64,000 bases of DNA from contig JAAYGB010000036.1 in NCBI GenBank assembly GCA_012727955.1, positions 1 through 64,000 on the forward strand, given 5' to 3'. Origin of the DNA: Bacillota bacterium. GTDB taxonomy: Bacteria; Bacillota; Limnochordia; DTU087; JAAYGB01. Of this stretch, positions 11,117 to 19,557 are shown piece after piece (the first letter of the stretch is position 1; every line of letters starts with the position of its first letter). Under the pieces are notes generated by a model that was not told the DNA's origin, ran no database searches, and saw nothing but the letters and a program-made list of their open reading frames with translations. A program made the position numbers and the translations under genes.

Positions 11117-11824
11117 TCATTCCGGGGAATTAGCAGACCCCACCTCAAGGTCATCGCTATCCGCGTGCATCAGCCTTTCCCCTGTCAGATAGTAAACTAC
11201 GCTTTCGGCGATGTTAGTTGCATGATCGCCAATGCGCTCTAAGAATCGGGCCACGAAGAGCAGAGTAACTGCTTGCGTGGCTCGATTGCTGTCTCCGCCC
11301 TCGGCAACAAAGCCCAGCAGTTCTTCATGGAGAAAATGATAGGTCTCATCGACGCTGTGATCCATCAGCAATACTTCCCGAGCCTTAGCGGCATCTTGAT
11401 GGACGAAGGAATCCAGGCAAGCCTGGACCATGATCTCGATGTGTTTGGCGATGTGGGGAATGTCGATCAAGGGCTTGATCAGCGGTGAATCACCGATTTG
11501 GATGGTGGTTTCCGCAATGTTGGAGGCCAGGTCTCCCATCCGCTCTAAATCCCGAATCGACCGCAGGATGCAGTAAATCCGGCGCAGATCCCGGGCTACC
11601 GGTTGAAACATCGCAATAACCTGCAGACCTTGCCTTTCCAACTCTACTTCTAACTCATCAATGATATCGTCATCCTCGACAACCTGCCGAGCCAAGTTAA
11701 GATCCTGTTCCAGCAACGAGCGGACGGCACTGTGGAGGCTTTTTTCCACGAGGCCGCCCATGGTCAACAGCGATTGTTCGATGCGGCGCAGGGCTGCATC
11801 CAAAGCTTCACGGGGCACTGTCAT
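11117..11824 (-). CDS. phoU: Phosphate signalling protein PhoU
   Basis: A cytoplasmic dimer of two three-helix bundles that, in studied bacteria, passes phosphate status from the Pst transporter to the PhoR kinase. Both PhoU repeats keep their metal-binding signature: DLERMGDLASNIAE in the first half and FLERIGDHATNIAE in the second. Length about 235 residues. Starts at 11827 (GTG), 11824 (ATG) and 11818 (GTG) are possible; the last is best spaced, eight bases from GGAAGG, and gives a normal N-terminus. It is the last gene of the phoPR-pst-like operon, 21 bases after the PstB-like gene. PhoU looks fully functional, in contrast to the transporter genes beside it. Confidence 0.93.
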   Translation of the reverse strand: MTVPREALDAALRRIEQSLLTMGGLVEKSLHSAVRSLLEQDLNLARQVVEDDDIIDELEVELERQGLQVIAMFQPVARDLRRIYCILRSIRDLERMGDLASNIAETTIQIGDSPLIKPLIDIPHIAKHIEIMVQACLDSFVHQDAAKAREVLLMDHSVDETYHFLHEELLGFVAEGGDSNRATQAVTLLFVARFLERIGDHATNIAESVVYYLTGERLMHADSDDLEVGSANSPE

Positions 11825-11845
11825 CACCTTCCATGCAACAGGGGC

Positions 11846-12601
11846 TCAATCGTTATAGTGTTCGGTTATAAACCTTTCCGTGGCGCTATTGGCCGGTCGC
11901 TCCAGCACCTGGGCGGTGGGGCTGATTTCCACCACTTGCCCCCGGTGCATAAAGATCGTGACATCCGTCAGTCGAGCCAGTTGCCTTACCTGATTGGTGG
12001 CAATGATGACTGTACACTTACTGGAGGCACGGCGCAGGGCCTTATCCAGCAGGTCCGTCTCCACGGGATCTAGTCCTCCTCCTGGTTCTGCCCACAGGAT
12101 GTGGGTGGGGCTAACGGCCAGGGCGGAGGCTAGGGCCAGTCGGGGTATTTGGGCAGGACAGACGCTGGCAGCAGGTTCACTGAGCCTGGGTCCCAGCTCC
12201 TCCCATAGGTCGACGGCCTCCAGGGCTTGCTCTACCCGGTCGGCCATGGCCACCGGGCGGGACCATCGTCGAATCCGCAGGCCCGTGGCCACATGATCGT
12301 AGATGGACCCCGGCAGGGGCAGGGGGTTGGATGGGATGGTTACCACCATCTTGCGAATTTCCTGGGGTTTGGTCTTGCGGGAGTAGACCTTCTGGCCTTT
12401 GTAGAAGACCTGTCCCGATACGTCGATGGGGCCGTCTAGCTCTAACATACGATTCAAGGCCCGCAACAGGGCAAGGATCCCAGAGTTACGATCCCCCAAG
12501 AGGCCCGTGACCTGCTGGTCGGGAAAGTCTATGGTAACATTGGAAAACAAGGTTCTTCCGTTCTGGACAACGGTAAAATCTTGACAGCGTAGTTCACTCA
12601 C
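11846..12601 (-). CDS. Degenerate PstB-like ABC protein without ATPase motifs
   Basis: Clearly derived from PstB, the phosphate-transporter ATPase: it keeps RALNRM after the P-loop position, SIYDHVATGLRIR, ALAVSPTHIL and EPGGGLDP. Every catalytic motif is altered. The Walker A segment reads GDRNSGILA (residues 36-44; DNA 12470-12496), with Ile for Lys; the Q-loop glutamine position is Ser91; the LSGGQ signature reads VCPAQIPR (147-154); the Walker B aspartate is Ala171, though the following Glu172 and the D-loop LDP remain; the H-loop histidine is Asn203. ATP binding by the normal mode is unlikely. The frame is intact at 251 residues. GTG 12601 is chosen, eight bases after GGAG, overlapping the pstA-like stop by eight bases. 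The clean frame and coupling suggest a retained non-catalytic role. Confidence 0.9.
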   Translation of the reverse strand: MSELRCQDFTVVQNGRTLFSNVTIDFPDQQVTGLLGDRNSGILALLRALNRMLELDGPIDVSGQVFYKGQKVYSRKTKPQEIRKMVVTIPSNPLPLPGSIYDHVATGLRIRRWSRPVAMADRVEQALEAVDLWEELGPRLSEPAASVCPAQIPRLALASALAVSPTHILWAEPGGGLDPVETDLLDKALRRASSKCTVIIATNQVRQLARLTDVTIFMHRGQVVEISPTAQVLERPANSATERFITEHYND

Positions 12602-13406
12602 ATTGGTCACTCCAAATAGTGAAGAAATGTCCTGGGCCGGTGTAGACCTCCCAGCTGCGACGAGATAAGCGATAGGCGATATGGTTAATGATCATACTCA
12701 TGCCCAGCAGCAACAGGAGTTCCACCGTAGTGATCTGTAAAGCGGTGGGAGTACCCGATGCTGCCGCCCACCCCATCCACAGTTGGGCCGGGGGGAACAT
12801 CCAATGGGGGGCAAAGATGCCAATCAACAGAACCTGCCCCAGGATCCTGGTGGTGAGAAAGGGAACCAGGTCCAAGGTATGGTGGAGCGCCTGCTTCCAA
12901 TAGATGATGCGCACAATCTGCCAGCGGGTGGCCCCTAAACCCTGCATTGCCTGCCAGGTGACCTGTCTTGTGGCAGCCATTCGGTTCAAAGAGTAATGGG
13001 CAAACCAGCTGCCGTTGGCGATGACCACTAAGGCCAAGGCGGTACCGGTGGGGTGGTTGGTGCGCTGCAGGATTAGTCCGCCGACGGGAATGAGGAGAAT
13101 TGGCGGGATGGCAGCAATGGCCGCAATCAGCCGCCGACTGCGACGAAACCACCGATTTGATAGGCTAGCGCTGATTACTACTACCCCCAGGAAGATCACC
13201 GTTGCGATCAGGGCTAGACTAAAGGCGGTGAAGAGACTGCTCTGGAAGATTGCCATCAGCAGATTCCAGTCTAGCCGGATCTCTTCCATCCCACTGACGC
13301 TCAGCGCGCGGAAAATTAAGAATAGGAAAAGGCCAAAGGGTAATAGGATCGGAAGGCTGGCTGGTACATACATTCTCAAAACATTAGGTCTGCCAAAGCG
13401 ACGCAT
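12594..13406 (-). CDS. PstA-like permease subunit, diverged
   Basis: A 270-residue integral membrane protein with about six hydrophobic helices and an ABC-permease coupling loop, WQAMQGLGATRWQIVR, preserving the central glycine that docks on the ATPase. It follows the PstC-like gene and precedes the PstB-like gene, the usual pstA place. In canonical PstA the helix after this loop carries an RxxGE motif; here it reads RILGQ, so the arginine stays and the glutamate is Gln. ATG 13406 overlaps the upstream stop by one base (TAATG) and is served by GGGGAGG. The function as phosphate permease is doubtful; a structural or signalling role with the neighbouring proteins is inferred. Confidence 0.8.
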   Translation of the reverse strand: MRRFGRPNVLRMYVPASLPILLPFGLFLFLIFRALSVSGMEEIRLDWNLLMAIFQSSLFTAFSLALIATVIFLGVVVISASLSNRWFRRSRRLIAAIAAIPPILLIPVGGLILQRTNHPTGTALALVVIANGSWFAHYSLNRMAATRQVTWQAMQGLGATRWQIVRIIYWKQALHHTLDLVPFLTTRILGQVLLIGIFAPHWMFPPAQLWMGWAAASGTPTALQITTVELLLLLGMSMIINHIAYRLSRRSWEVYTGPGHFFTIWSDQCE

Positions 13407-14194
13407 TATTCCACTCCTCCCCAAAGAGGTCTGCGACAAGCCCCAAGTTGGGTCACAGTATGGATTGTCAGTAAGATTAACAGGGGGACCTTGTGGGAGG
13501 CAATGTGAGATACCAGCAAAGGCCCGAGTCGGCCCACTAGATCCGCTGAAATGCTGGTAGCCAAGGTCACGGGAGAATGGAGGATCAGAAGAGATATAGC
13601 TCCTTCCAGTGCTGCGAAGGCCATGATGGGAAGAAGGTTACGAAAAGTAGCCCTTTGCGCCTTGGGGATGATGAGGATCTGAAATATCTGCCTCCGAGAA
13701 CCTCCCAAGCCGAAAAGGGTTTCTCGCCAGGTTGCTGGAGTAGACTCTAAGTTTGCCAAAATCTGAATTGTCAACCTGGGGAAGCTGATACTGCCAAGAA
13801 CAATGGCGAGGTAGACAATCGAGGCTGTTGGAGACCAGATTCTGGTTGAGGCCAACAGGGGAACGGCAGCGGCAAATCCCCACAGGGTTAGGGGGGATTG
13901 CGCAATCACCAGTAACACCGTAAACATTTTCTCCTTCGCGGTGTGGGGCAACATGAAGACACACACCGCGGAAAAAAATGCTAGGGGTAGGGCCACGATG
14001 ACCACCAGCAAAGCTACTGTGATGGTACCAGCAATGGGTATCTCCAGATTGCCCGCACTCAGAGAGGGGATATTACCGCTGGAGCCTGCTGTCGGTAAAG
14101 CCAGAATGATAGCCGCCAAACAGACTGCCACGGCGATAACAATGACCAACGACTCTGAGCGCGAGACCTTCACCTCACTTTGTACTTGCATCAT
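13406..14194 (-). CDS. PstC-like permease subunit, diverged
   Basis: A 262-residue membrane protein with about six hydrophobic segments, shorter than typical PstC (about 300). The coupling loop RETLFGLGGSRRQIFQ is recognisable. In canonical PstC the following helix has GRALGE, whose Arg and Glu are needed for phosphate transport in E. coli; the aligned segment here is AFAALEG, which keeps Glu but not Arg. The gene lies 35 bases after phoR, where pstS would normally come first; no periplasmic phosphate-binding protein is encoded between phoR and this gene. ATG 14194 or 14191 follows GAGGAGGG. The PstC label is from gene order plus weak similarity. Confidence 0.75.
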   Translation of the reverse strand: MMQVQSEVKVSRSESLVIVIAVAVCLAAIILALPTAGSSGNIPSLSAGNLEIPIAGTITVALLVVIVALPLAFFSAVCVFMLPHTAKEKMFTVLLVIAQSPLTLWGFAAAVPLLASTRIWSPTASIVYLAIVLGSISFPRLTIQILANLESTPATWRETLFGLGGSRRQIFQILIIPKAQRATFRNLLPIMAFAALEGAISLLILHSPVTLATSISADLVGRLGPLLVSHIASHKVPLLILLTIHTVTQLGACRRPLWGGVE

Positions 14195-14229
14195 AGTCCC
14201 TCCTCATACCGGTGCCTTGCCCAGACTGC

Positions 14230-15624
14230 CTACTCTGCTCTGGGCAGAGTCACTGTAAAGGCGGTACCTTCACCAAGTTCGCTTTCCACCGAAATAGTGC
14301 CCTTGTGTCTTTCAACGATGTGTTTCACGATGGCCAGACCCAGCCCCGTACCTCCCATTCCCCGAGACCGGCCCTTATCCACTCGATAGAACCGCTCGAA
14401 AACTCGAGGAAGGTGTTTGGCAGCAATCCCGACTCCATTGTCGGCGATTTCCACCACAATTTCCTTAGCAGTGGTCTCGATGACATTAACCCACACACTA
14501 CCCCCGGCTTCCGTGTACTTGACTCCATTGTCGATCAGGTTAATAAAGACCTGATGGAGCATCTGCTCATCGCCGGCCACCGGCGGGAGCTCCGGGGGAA
14601 TGTCCCTGTGGATAGTGATGTTCTTAGCTGTGGCCTGGGGGCCACAGGTGGCAATGCTGTTTTCCAAGACCTGTCTTAGGTTTACCGGTTCTGGTTTCCA
14701 GGCTTCGTTACTAGCCTCAATTTTCGACAGCTTCAAGAGGTCATTGACAATCGCCACCATACGGTCTGTTTCCCGGGCAATAATGGGAAGAAAATGGGCG
14801 ATGCCCTCGGGATCCTCAGCGGCCCCATCGCTGAGGGTTTCCACAAACCCTTTAATTGACGTTAAGGGAGTCCGCAGCTCATGGGAGACATTGGCCACAA
14901 AATCTGACCGCATCTGCTCCAGACGCTTAAGTTCCGTCACATCGTGGAGGATGGTGGCTACTCCTACGGCGTTACCCCGCTCGTCGGTAATGGGGGTCGC
15001 GTGGGCGCGCATAATTCTCTGGGAGGGGGTAAAAAGGTTCACTTCTTGTACCGAAACCGCCTTTTCTCCCAGGGCCTCGTTAAAAGCCTTAATTAGGTCG
15101 TAATTGCGGACAATGCTCAGTAAATCCTGTCCTTCCAAATCGACATCGGGATCGACGCCCAGGAGACTGCGGGCCGCGGGATTGCTCAGAATAATTCGCA
15201 GTTCCTGATCAACGATAATCAGTCCGTCGATCATCGTCGCTGTGATCCCACTGAGCTTGATCCGATTGGCTTCCGCCTCCGCCATAGCTTCTCGATACTG
15301 GCTGGTCATGTCGTTAAGGGCATCGGCCAGCAACTGTAGGCTATGGCTGGTATTAGGCGCGAGCCTCACCTTCATATCGAAGTTCCCAGCGGCAATGCGG
15401 CGAATGCTGCCCAGGAGTTCTTCGAAGGTGAGGGATAGCTCCCGGCGGACAAAGTACAACACAATTCCCAAAGAAACTACCAACAATACAGACAGGATAG
15501 CCGCGCTGGGAACAAACTCTGGCACTAATTGGGGAAGGACATATCGGGCCACGGCTAATCCAATAGCGTTTACACCGGCGAGAATAGCTAAAATCCGCGC
15601 CAGTACCGGATCTTTTAGACTCAT
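14230..15624 (-). CDS. phoR: Phosphate-regulon sensor histidine kinase PhoR
   Basis: A 464-residue membrane histidine kinase paired with PhoP. Order of domains: two close transmembrane helices (about residues 8-30 and 40-60) joined by a loop of only about ten residues, a HAMP-like linker, a PAS domain (about 120-225), the HisKA helix with the phospho-acceptor in FVANVSHELRTPLTSIKG, and the HATPase domain with NLIDNGVKY, DNGVGI and GGTGLGLAIVKHI. All catalytic motifs are intact. With no extracytoplasmic sensor domain, it resembles the E. coli form of PhoR that is controlled by Pst and PhoU rather than the Bacillus form with an external PAS domain. ATG 15624 overlaps the phoP stop by four bases (ATGA). 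Confidence 0.9.
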   Translation of the reverse strand: MSLKDPVLARILAILAGVNAIGLAVARYVLPQLVPEFVPSAAILSVLLVVSLGIVLYFVRRELSLTFEELLGSIRRIAAGNFDMKVRLAPNTSHSLQLLADALNDMTSQYREAMAEAEANRIKLSGITATMIDGLIIVDQELRIILSNPAARSLLGVDPDVDLEGQDLLSIVRNYDLIKAFNEALGEKAVSVQEVNLFTPSQRIMRAHATPITDERGNAVGVATILHDVTELKRLEQMRSDFVANVSHELRTPLTSIKGFVETLSDGAAEDPEGIAHFLPIIARETDRMVAIVNDLLKLSKIEASNEAWKPEPVNLRQVLENSIATCGPQATAKNITIHRDIPPELPPVAGDEQMLHQVFINLIDNGVKYTEAGGSVWVNVIETTAKEIVVEIADNGVGIAAKHLPRVFERFYRVDKGRSRGMGGTGLGLAIVKHIVERHKGTISVESELGEGTAFTVTLPRAE

Positions 15625-16304
15625 CTGCGACCCTCAACCTTGTAACCAACCCCATGCACCGTGTGAATGTAACGGGGATTGGTGGGATCGTCGTTCAGTT
15701 TCTGCCGCAAGCGGCGGATATGAACGTCAACGGTCCGGGTTTCACCACCGTAATCATAGCCCCACACCGTCTCCAGCAGCATATCCCGGCTGAGAACCTT
15801 GCCTTGGTTCTTGACCAAGAGTAACAGGAGTTCAAACTCCTTGGGCGTGAGGGCGATGGGTCTTCCGGACTCGGTGACCTCGTGGCGGTCAATATCGATG
15901 ACCAGCTCGTCGAGGCGAACCTGGGTAGTCTCCTCCATAGGATAGGCACGGCGGAGTACCGCCTTGATGCGAGCCATCAGCTCCTTGGGACTGAAGGGTT
16001 TGGTGATGTAATCGTCGGCTCCCATTTCCAACCCAGAAACCCGCTCAGATTCATCACCCTTGGCCGTTAGCATGATAATCGGGGTGTTGGACTCCTTGCG
16101 GATGGCTTTACAGACTTCCCAGCCATCCATGGTGGGCAGCATAATATCTAGAAGCACCAAATCCGGCTGGTTGACCCGAAAGATCTCTAAGGCTTCCGGA
16201 CCATCCTCCGCCATCACAGCGGTGTAACCTTCTTTTTCCAAATTAAACCTGATAAGTTCGCGGATCGATTCCTCATCGTCCACCACTAAAATTAACTCAG
16301 CCAC
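15621..16304 (-). CDS. phoP: Response regulator PhoP (OmpR family)
   Basis: A 227-residue transcription factor: an N-terminal receiver domain with the acidic pocket VVDDEE, the phospho-acceptor Asp in VLLDIMLP, and the conserved Lys in TKPFSPKEL, then a winged-helix OmpR-type DNA-binding domain with TRTVDVHIRRLRQKL and a VHGVGYK ending. GTG 16304 is chosen, seven bases after AGGAG; an ATG further upstream would add an unlikely 16-residue tail. First gene of the minus-strand operon, with a TATAAT box and an 11-bp direct repeat upstream that could be its own binding site. The PhoP name rests on gene order with phoR, phoU and pst-like genes. Confidence 0.9.
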   Translation of the reverse strand: MAELILVVDDEESIRELIRFNLEKEGYTAVMAEDGPEALEIFRVNQPDLVLLDIMLPTMDGWEVCKAIRKESNTPIIMLTAKGDESERVSGLEMGADDYITKPFSPKELMARIKAVLRRAYPMEETTQVRLDELVIDIDRHEVTESGRPIALTPKEFELLLLLVKNQGKVLSRDMLLETVWGYDYGGETRTVDVHIRRLRQKLNDDPTNPRYIHTVHGVGYKVEGRR

Positions 16305-16351: not shown

Positions 16352-16388
16352 ATTATAGAATACCATAAAATTGTTACGATATTGTTGC
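16352..16388 (-). promoter_or_regulatory. phoP promoter with Pho-box-like direct repeat
   Basis: On the minus strand a consensus -10 TATAAT (16352-16357) lacks a matching -35. Upstream are two hexamers, GCAACA (16383-16388) and GTAACA (16372-16377), spaced 11 bp start to start. Bacillus PhoP binds repeats of TT(A/C/T)ACA with this 11-bp period in the same position, so an activator-dependent, self-regulated promoter is plausible but inferred. Confidence 0.45.
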
Positions 16389-16479: not shown

Positions 16480-16768
16480 ATACATCAACAAGAGCAGGAC
16501 CATGATGGGGAGGAGTAGGCGAGATTCTACTTGCCAGAGAGGGAAATCCACCGGCTGAAAGGTTTCCTAAGTCAAGAATCGCCGAAGGTCGCCCCGGAGT
16601 CGCCGTCCCGAAAGTATGGCTTTGCCCGAAGCAGAGCAGTAACGAGTAAGGCCGGCCGGGAGAGCCCGTTATAGCTAAATGAGGGCCCGGTACACTGGGA
16701 TTGTGTCGGGAATTAAGGTGGTAACGCGGAAGCTGCTTTCGTCCTTTTGGCGAGAGGAGCTTTTTTGT
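16480..16768 (+). promoter_or_regulatory. T-box riboswitch, valine specifier, controlling valS
   Basis: An RNA element that senses uncharged tRNA(Val) and lets transcription continue into valS. The conserved T-box AAGGTGGTAACGCGGAAG is at 16715-16732. In Stem I, GATTCT and AGAATC pair around 16525 and 16575, and the specifier loop on the 3' side has GUC (16571-16573), a valine codon followed by a purine. The AGAGAGGGAA and GGCTGAAAGG segments match the upper Stem I motifs. The leader ends in a terminator hairpin (about 16730-16768) whose stem AAGCT...AGCTT overlaps the T-box and is followed by TTTTTT. About 120 bases with no clear further structure lie between terminator and start codon. Confidence 0.88.
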
Positions 16769-16890
16769 TTTATTGGATTTCCGGGCAACATGGAACGGAG
16801 AGTACGCGCTTTTCTTGGGCTACACTGCTTGAGGGTAGTGGGGACCGGACTGAAGAGAGAGGAAAGGGATAGAGAAAGGGGTTGGACAAC

Positions 16891-19557
16891 GTGGCCAAGC
16901 AAACACAGACCCAGGGTTTACCGACGGTCTTTGATCCCAAGGCCGTGGAAGAAAAATGGTACAATCACTGGAAGGAGAAGGGGTATTTTCATGCCGAGGT
17001 AGATAAGAGCAAAGAACCCTTTTCCATCGTGATTCCGCCCCCGAATGTGACGGGCCAACTCCACATGGGTCATGCCATGGACAACACGATGCAGGATATT
17101 TTGGTGCGGTGGAAACGGATGCAGGGGTATAACACCGTCTGGATTCCCGGTACCGACCATGCCGGCATTGCCACCCAAATCAAGGTGGAAGAGGCCCTGC
17201 GGGAAGAAGAAGGATTGACTCGTCATGATCTGGGTCGAGAAAAATTTTTGGAGAGAGTTTGGGCCTGGAAGGAAAAATATGGAAACCGAATCCGGGAGCA
17301 GTTGGAGACTCTGGGGGTTTCCTGCGATTGGGAGCGGGAACGCTTTACCATGGATGAAGGCTGTAGTAAAGCGGTGCGAGAGGTCTTTGTGGAGCTGTAC
17401 AACAAGGGCTTGATTTATCAAGGCAGCTACATTATTAATTGGTGCCCTCGCTGCAATACCGCCCTGTCCGATGTGGAAGTGGAGCATGAGGAGCAACAGG
17501 GCAAGATTTGGCACATCAAGTATCCTTTGAAAAATGGACAGGGGTACATCACCATTGCGACCACGAGACCGGAAACGATGCTCGGTGATACCGCGTTGGC
17601 CGTTAATCCCCAGGATGAACGCTATCAAGACTTGATCTCGGAAACGGTGATTCTGCCCCTGATGAACCGGGAAATTCCCATCATTGCCGACGATTATGTC
17701 GACATGGAGTTTGGAACGGGAGTGGTGAAGATCACCCCAGGCCATGACCCCAACGACTTTGAGGTGGGAATGCGCCATGGACTGGAAATCATCATGGTCA
17801 TTGGAGAAGATGGATCCATCACGGAGGCCGGCGGCAAGTACGCAGGAATGGATCGCTACGAAGCCCGTCGGGCAGTGGTCCAAGACTTGACGGAGCTGGG
17901 CCTTTTGGAGAAGGTGGAGGAACACCAACACGCGGTGGGTGGGTGCCAGCGCTGTGGGACCACCGTGGAACCCTTGGTTTCCAAACAATGGTTTGTGAAG
18001 ATGAAACCCCTAGCCAAGCCGGCCATCGAGGCGGTAGAGCAGGGTAAAGTTCGCTTTGTTCCCGAGCGCTTTGCCAAGAACTATCTCCACTGGATGGAAA
18101 ACATCAGGGATTGGTGTATTTCCCGGCAGTTGTGGTGGGGACACCGGATTCCCGTGTGGTACTGCCAGGATTGTGACGAGGTAATCGTGGCTAAAGAGGA
18201 CCCCACCAGCTGTTCCAAGTGCGGCAGCCAGAATCTAGAGCAGGATCCCGACGGCTTGGACACCTGGTTTAGCTCGGCCCTTTGGCCCTTCTCCACCATG
18301 GGATGGCCGGAGCAAACTCCGGAGTTAGAGCATTTTTATCCTACTTCGGTGTTGGTCACCGGATTTGACATCATTTATTTCTGGGTAGCGCGGATGATCT
18401 TTACCGGAATTGAGTTTATGGGTGAGGTTCCCTTCCCCGATGTTCTCATCCACGGGTTGGTCCGGGATGCCCAGGGGCGCAAGATGAGCAAGTCCTTGGG
18501 TAACGGTGTCGATCCCATCGAGGTGATCGAGGAATATGGGGCCGATGCTCTCCGGTTTACCCTGGTTACCGGTACCTCGCCGGGAAATGATACCCGGTAT
18601 GAGCCGGAGAAGGTGGAGGCCAGTCGGAACTTCGCCAATAAGATTTGGAATGCCAGCCGCTTCGCACTGATGAATCTCACGGACTTCGATCCCGAGGCAG
18701 CAGACCTTGAGGCCTTGGAGTTGAGTTTGCCGGATCGATGGATTCTCAGTCGGTATCAGACGGTGATTCGGGAAGTGACCCGCAGATTAACCCGCTACGA
18801 ACTAGGGGAAGCCGCCAGGGAGCTGTATGACTTCATCTGGAGCGAATTCTGCGACTGGTACATCGAGCTGGTTAAGCCTCGGTTGTACGGAAGGTTCGGT
18901 GATGGCGCCAAGGCAACTAGTCAATACGTGTTGTGGTCGGTCCTGCGGGGAACCTTGGAGTTGCTGCATCCCTACATGCCCTTCCTGACGGAGGAAATTT
19001 GGCAGCAGCTGCCCCACCAGGGAGAGACCATCATGTTGGCTTCCTGGCCCAAGGCCGACGAGCAATGGGATGATCCCCAGGCAGAGCAGGACATGGAGAC
19101 CGTCATGGAGCTGATTCGGGCTATCCGCAATGTGCGGGCGGAGAACCAAGTGGCTCCCGGTAAGACCATTACCGCCATCGTTCATGCCTCACCGGAGAAG
19201 CAGCAGTTGGTAACAGATAGTGAGGAGTACCTGAAGACCCTGGGCAAGATCAGCGAACTGACGGTAGCTGGCCTAGAGGCCGATAAGCCCGAAAAGGTGG
19301 TGACGGCTATTGCCGCGGGAATTGAGATCTACTTGCCTCTAGCGGATTTGGTGGATTTGGAGCAGGAGATTCAGCGGCTGCAAGGGGAATTGGAGAAAAC
19401 CCAGCAGGAGATTAGCCGCTCCCAGGGCAAACTGGCCAACGAAGGCTTTGTTAACAAGGCTCCCGAAGCCGTGGTAGACAAAGAGCGAGCCAAATTGGCA
19501 GCTCTCTTGGAGCAGGAGGAGCGCATTCGAGCTCGCCTGGCAGAGTTACAGGAGTAG
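16891..19557 (+). CDS. valS: Valyl-tRNA synthetase
   Basis: Class I aminoacyl-tRNA synthetase that charges tRNA(Val). The HIGH motif appears as HMGH at residues 58-61 in [17 protein letters not shown], and KMSKS at 531-535. The editing (CP1) domain lies between them, the anticodon-binding domain follows from about residue 610, and the last 70 residues form the tRNA-binding coiled coil typical of ValRS. Length 888 residues is normal. GTG 16891 is preferred, nine bases after GGGG; TTG 16882 in frame is too close to that site. Expression is controlled by the T-box leader, whose specifier codon GUC agrees. Followed six bases later by folC. Confidence 0.97.

Follow-up and report, generated by a model that had tools for sequence, protein, structure and literature searches.

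The stretch of DNA analysed here (the window: positions 1 to 64,000 of contig JAAYGB010000036.1) carries at 11117-16304, on the minus strand, an operon of six genes that encode PhoP, PhoR, a PstC-like protein (psC), a PstA-like protein (psA), a PstB-like protein (psB) and PhoU, with no PstS gene among them. The module is real and unusual. It is a novel version of the Pst-PhoU-PhoR system, and by the defining features examined it does not count among functional PstSCAB transporters. The genes are the following:

15621..16304, minus strand: PhoP, OmpR/PhoB-type response regulator (GTG start; Pfam Response_reg and Trans_reg_C)
14230..15624, minus strand: PhoR histidine kinase (PnpS/PhoR NCBIfam match above cut-off)
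13406..14194, minus strand: psC, degenerate PstC-like permease of 262 amino acids with about six transmembrane (TM) helices (TIGR02138, E 0.0012; hhalign; structure match)
12594..13406, minus strand: psA, degenerate PstA/PstC-like permease of 270 amino acids (sub-threshold BPD_transp_1; hhalign)
11846..12610, minus strand: psB, PstB-like, all ATP-binding/hydrolysis motifs altered (TIGR00972 best match; motif reading)
11117..11827 (or 11824), minus strand: PhoU, two intact PhoU domains (TIGR02135)

The genes are tightly packed. phoP and phoR overlap at an ATGA, phoR and psC are separated by a 35-nt gap, psC and psA meet at TAATG, and psA and psB overlap by 8 or 17 nt, according to the GTG start taken for psB. 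Gene calls and family searches bear out the array of six packed, PstS-less genes reported in a preliminary description of this DNA, and its view that PhoP, PhoR and PhoU are intact also stands: PhoU and PhoR exceed their curated cut-offs (200 bits against 130 for TIGR02135; 423 bits for PnpS/PhoR), and PhoP is of the OmpR/PhoB type. PhoU carries ERxGDxxxNIAE motifs in its two domains. PhoR consists of two TM helices, a short loop, a weak HAMP domain, and PAS, HisKA and HATPase domains; only about 15 residues lie between its TM helices, so that an extracytoplasmic sensor domain is absent, as had been claimed. The features of a signalling module are thus present, namely a two-domain PhoU and a PAS/HisKA/HATPase PhoR that has no large outside domain and is paired with PhoP.

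Comparison was made with 11 genomes from six genera of a sister family in the same order, the window's genome being the only one of its own family compared. The sister-family PhoPs score 331-350 bits with the window PhoP (phmmer), the PhoU proteins are 43-48% identical, and PhoR orthologues of about 49% identity occupy the same locus in all 11 genomes. This phoPR locus is syntenic, lying between leuCD-EamA and valS-folC in the window and in the sister family, although contig ends hide one side in some genomes. Divergent from phoP, a T-box leader at 16493-16749 on the plus strand (RF00230, 109.7 bits) stands upstream of valS (16882-19557).

The remaining three genes have diverged profoundly, most tellingly psB. 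Its best NCBIfam match is PstB (TIGR00972), at 176 bits about half the cut-off of 343. The ATPase residues, described earlier as altered, are indeed changed in every motif: Walker A reads GDRNSGILA (canonical PstB GPSGCGKST), with loss of the lysine; the Q-loop VTIPSNPLPL (GMVFQKPNPF); the signature VCPAQIPRL (LSGGQQQRL); Walker B HILWAEP, with WAEP for MDEP and loss of the aspartate; and the H-loop IATNQ, with ATNQ for VTHN and loss of the histidine. Among conserved columns defined from 32 canonical PstBs psB keeps 37 of 70 (53%) outside the ATP motifs and 10 of 33 (30%) within them (Fisher p 0.036). Judged from this loss of motifs, psB would be unable to bind ATP.

The permeases stand at the limit of recognition. 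psC gives a weak match to PstC and psA only a sub-threshold match to BPD_transp_1 (E 1.8e-4), and hhalign places both nearest to sister-family PstC (97% each). An AlphaFold model of psC, of moderate quality (mean pLDDT 69) and built from an alignment that already included PstC-like relatives, has E. coli PstC (9k3x_B) as its best PDB match (E 5e-4, TM-score 0.45); the psA model (pLDDT 53) is too poor for use, and PDB searches started from the psA or psC sequence alone gave no useful match. Given this divergence, their assignment as PstC and PstA rests partly on gene order. The coupling glycines of the EAA loops, said earlier to have been kept, are present in GLGGSRRQ and, in psA, GLGATRWQ.

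The frames of psC, psA and psB together are open across about 786 codons (P ~3e-15 for fully randomised sequence of the same composition), and in each of the three genes the annotated frame has the best codon-usage score. A frame or assembly artefact was rejected, the operon lying inside a long contig with consistent codon bias, as was an ordinary functional Pst for psC-psA-psB, on the missing PstS gene, the PstB motifs and the TIGR00972 score.

A related, less extreme condition prevails in the sister family. All 11 genomes have pstC-pstA-pstB-phoU without PstS, located upstream of miaB-mutS-mutL and not at phoPR; it is flanked on one side by a gene for an S-layer-domain protein, accompanied by ExbB/ExbD/TonB-like genes, and on the other by miaB-mutS-mutL-miaA. 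Walker A of this PstB is intact, and in every genome with motifs read the Q-loop glutamine is replaced by arginine and the Walker B glutamate by aspartate (DE>DD). The signature is LSPGQ for LSGGQ (LSPGE once, LRPGQ once) and the H-loop residue is H, N or D. A canonical PstB was found in none of the 11. The alteration is therefore not a one-genome accident, and the catalytically intact orthologue in relatives, which the preliminary description had named as evidence of recent decay, did not appear. One sister-family pstB has a single in-frame TGA stop, in a genome 85% complete and 7% contaminated, which may be a sequence error or real decay.

Within one sister-family genus, ratios of non-synonymous to synonymous change (dN/dS), which are approximate in view of the high synonymous divergence (0.4-2.3), were 0.056 for PstB, 0.048 for PhoU, 0.20 for PstA and 0.24 for PstC, with control genes at 0.03-0.10. 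PstB and PhoU are thus under strong purifying selection in that family and the permeases under weaker constraint. Purifying selection is thus seen in the sisters; for the window copy, a contig search found no close relative of psB, the sole match being an unrelated ABC (ATP-binding cassette) protein of 21% identity.

No other PstB scoring like these occurs among the class (73 genomes) or 399 genomes of the phylum, and the seven top-scoring other PstBs of the phylum, taken for comparison, are intact and canonical wherever motifs were read. In trees with long branches the window PhoU groups weakly (64/69) with the PhoU of another family, and a grouping of window with sister-family genes is not rejected (approximately unbiased test, p 0.35 for PhoU, 0.14 for PstB); on these sequences the two sets of Pst genes may or may not share one degenerate ancestor. 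A different re-arrangement of Pho genes is seen at three loci in another family of the class, with two PstB genes and a PhoU divergent from a protein of 820-890 amino acids with 9-11 TM helices; PhoP adjoins one PstB at two of these three loci.

The intact Walker A and the retained PstA ARxxGE motif of the sister family could signify transport of another kind, in which the sister complex binds ATP and performs slow import or export with an unrecognised binding protein, and that of the window acts as a passive channel. We consider this improbable: no PstS-like gene is a neighbour, the adjoining gene encoding the S-layer-domain protein, the catalytic E>D and the Q-loop and H-loop changes point away from it, and the window complex would be devoid of any ATP site.

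The upstream region of phoP offers a further link between the two families, in the form of two elements:

16361..16388, minus strand: PHO-box-like element GCAACA-N5-GTAACA-N5-ATGGTA, three direct repeats with 11-bp spacing (17/18 to consensus)
16352..16357, minus strand: TATAAT, putative -10 hexamer, 14 nt past the second repeat (from sequence; similar layout at sister-family phoP promoters)

Sister-family pstC is preceded by the repeat array GTTACG-N5-TTAGCA-N5-GTAACA-N5-GTAACA-N5-ATGRTA, also of 11-bp spacing, with variants in two genomes. Against the consensus drawn from these pstC promoters the window phoP site matches 17 of 18 positions; the next best site in the 64 kb matches 14, and no site above 15 arose in 25 simulated sequences of that length. 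With a weight matrix the site ranks first of 127,944 positions, narrowly (4.9 vs 4.8); with its conserved spacers the matrix overfits, and the consensus of the repeats alone was preferred. In the sister family, phoP is likewise preceded by related repeats, spaced much as in the window from a TATAAT, but these score lower (11-12) by the pstC-promoter consensus. Exact matches elsewhere in the order are near chance, the two in the window's genome lying inside or beside unrelated genes, and no convincing site was found at Na/Pi (sodium/phosphate) cotransporter genes. The putative element is laid out as a PHO box, which makes it probable that in both families the transporter remnant is part of the Pho regulon.

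Phosphate import in these genomes apparently falls to other systems. PstS (PF12849) had no match in the window's genome or its 11 relatives (control positive in 13 of 14), and none of the order's 12 genomes has Pit (PF01384; control positive in 10 of 14). Na/Pi cotransporter genes are present in 12 of 12, normally two in each, and the longer of the proteins carries a PhoU domain in the window's genome and most relatives. The short gene appears split over the ends of contigs C32 and C8 of the window's genome, suggesting that these contigs are adjacent. That genome, alone in the order, has in addition a canonical pstA-pstB-phoU-phoP-phoR set on contig C41 (20000-28201). Its PstB is intact (419.7 bits), and its PhoR exposes about 125 residues outside, in a Cache-like domain. 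The contig ends just ahead of pstA; pstC and pstS for this copy are not in the assembly, and a PstS belonging to it is possible, since the operon is cut by the contig end. The expectation that another system imports phosphate is hence borne out by the Na/Pi cotransporters of every genome and by the canonical PstB operon fragment.

We propose, at about even odds, that the operon is a Pho signalling module whose Pst-derived complex has lost transport and is kept as the membrane partner that PhoU and PhoR require. Lacking an outside sensor, PhoR would take its signal from PhoU docked on psB, psC and psA. With a psB that does not bind ATP, the complex would rest in a nucleotide-free, open state. 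Flux cannot be reported by a complex devoid of an ATP site, and the simplest reading is a scaffold that anchors PhoU to the membrane next to PhoR. Starvation would be signalled from the cytoplasm, most probably through PhoU, the cue being internal phosphate supplied by Na/Pi cotransport instead of flux through Pst; phosphorylated PhoP would then bind the 16361-16388 repeats and so increase expression of the whole operon (phoPR, remnant and phoU), as a feedback. Here we infer complex formation, resting state, signalling direction, cue and promoter function alike.

Several observations weigh against such a sensor. The terminal branch of psB is about 10 changes per site (1.88 for PhoU), which fits strongly relaxed constraint, and the fully dead PstB form is known from one genome only. 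Sister-family pstCAB-phoU sits apart from phoPR. In the window's genome a second phoU-phoP-phoR set stands beside the intact PstB on C41, so that this Pst and PhoPR may do the ordinary sensing in the organism, and a third PhoU gene (contig C61, 6038-6700) stands without Pst neighbours. The real regulators could also be the NptA-type proteins, present here, that carry PhoU domains.

The long psB branch, together with permeases below Pfam cut-offs and a dead form confined to a genome that has a canonical PstB operon, could reflect decay in progress: an old pstCAB, made useless by reliance on canonical pst or on Na/Pi cotransport, would drift yet persist in frame, since it is placed between phoR and phoU and stops would be polar on phoU. 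This is unlikely in our judgement, as more than 780 codons remain free of stops although identity has fallen to about 30% or lower, the codon bias is kept and conserved residues outside the motifs are retained more often than those within; moreover, the altered PstB of the sister family is under purifying selection where pstCAB is not beside phoPR. A slightly smaller chance attaches to a role in the control of other importers, whereby the remnant, with PhoU, acts on the Na/Pi cotransporters or as a buffer for PhoU, and PhoR is controlled mainly by the canonical Pst copy or the NptA-like PhoU domain. The presence of such a domain in the long Na/Pi protein, the second phoU-phoPR set, and the effect of the NptA PhoU domain and PitR on PhoPR in S. 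aureus (PMC13170248) speak for such a role; the sharing of an operon by the remnant and phoPR in the window, and the PHO-box-like control in both families, speak against it, as does the sister family, which lacks a canonical Pst and in which no PhoU protein was found besides the Pst-linked one and the Na/Pi PhoU domain.

A sensor role is plausible; its strongest support comes from the sister-family comparison, and the chief doubt from the second Pst-PhoPR set. The Pst complex retained for signalling only, as first proposed, is supported in part, by the loss of motifs, the altered yet selected PstB of the sisters and the PHO-box-like promoter; the second, normal phoU-phoPR set weakens the claim that operon 11117-16304 is the phosphate sensor of the cell. 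With somewhat less confidence than for the operon itself, we suggest that the whole order may have turned a Pst importer into a PhoU/PhoR signalling scaffold, PHO-box-driven and without PstS, with phosphate entering by Na/Pi cotransport and the ATPase rewritten, to an ATP-binding, hydrolysis-impaired form in one family and an ATP-free form in the other.

It has long been asked how Pst informs PhoR, whether by flux, by its conformation or through internal phosphate. If our proposal is true, these complexes are natural receptors derived from an ABC importer, and Pst signalling would not require transport. The separation of the two functions in two natural grades (ATP site intact with hydrolysis residues changed; ATP site gone) would provide ready-made test cases, and such lineages show which parts of PstC, PstA and PstB persist once transport stops selecting them. 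As a corollary, annotation of pstCAB-phoU does not imply phosphate import.

UhpC of E. coli, a homologue of major facilitator superfamily transporters that serves as sensing partner of a histidine kinase, embodies a similar idea in a different transporter class. As the preliminary description had supposed, literature searches, which did not cover subscription papers, found neither a PstS-less or ATPase-dead Pst sensor nor any receptor derived from an ABC or Pst-type transporter.

The closest parallels are with known Pst systems. The signal to PhoR passes by way of PhoU and Pst in E. coli, where signalling is separable from transport (PMC5775613); Salmonella PhoR answers to a phosphorus signal inside the cell, though Pst and PhoU are needed (PMC10055408). 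The window operon resembles the E. coli PstSCAB-PhoU-PhoR-PhoB system (PDB 9k3s/9k3x/9k3y; PMC5775613) in its PhoU, its PhoR without outside sensor domain, its Pst-type permeases and PstB-type subunit, its PHO-box-like control and its operon linkage. It differs in the absence of PstS, in a psB without ATP site, in permeases that are barely recognisable, in having phoPR in the same operon and in import apparently by Na/Pi cotransport and a second Pst. Two dual or tandem systems, the Pst sets of Streptococcus pneumoniae and the PstBs of Enterococcus faecalis (PMC4913102, PMC12096839), likewise have two Pst sets or two PstBs of unequal roles, and in S. pneumoniae one Pst set lies beside a two-component system, as in the window; unlike in psB, Walker A, Walker B, LSGGQ and the H-loop are all intact in the two PstBs of E. 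faecalis. A further parallel is with two transport-dead E. coli PstB mutants, Q160K, predicted to sit in the nucleotide-free, open state, which holds PhoR in phosphatase mode, and E179Q, which gives a starvation signal (PMC5775613). As in these, transport would be lost and a signalling state kept, the E>D change of the sister family falling at the E179 position; whereas those are laboratory point mutants locked in one output, the window's is a natural loss at many sites, maintained through evolution.

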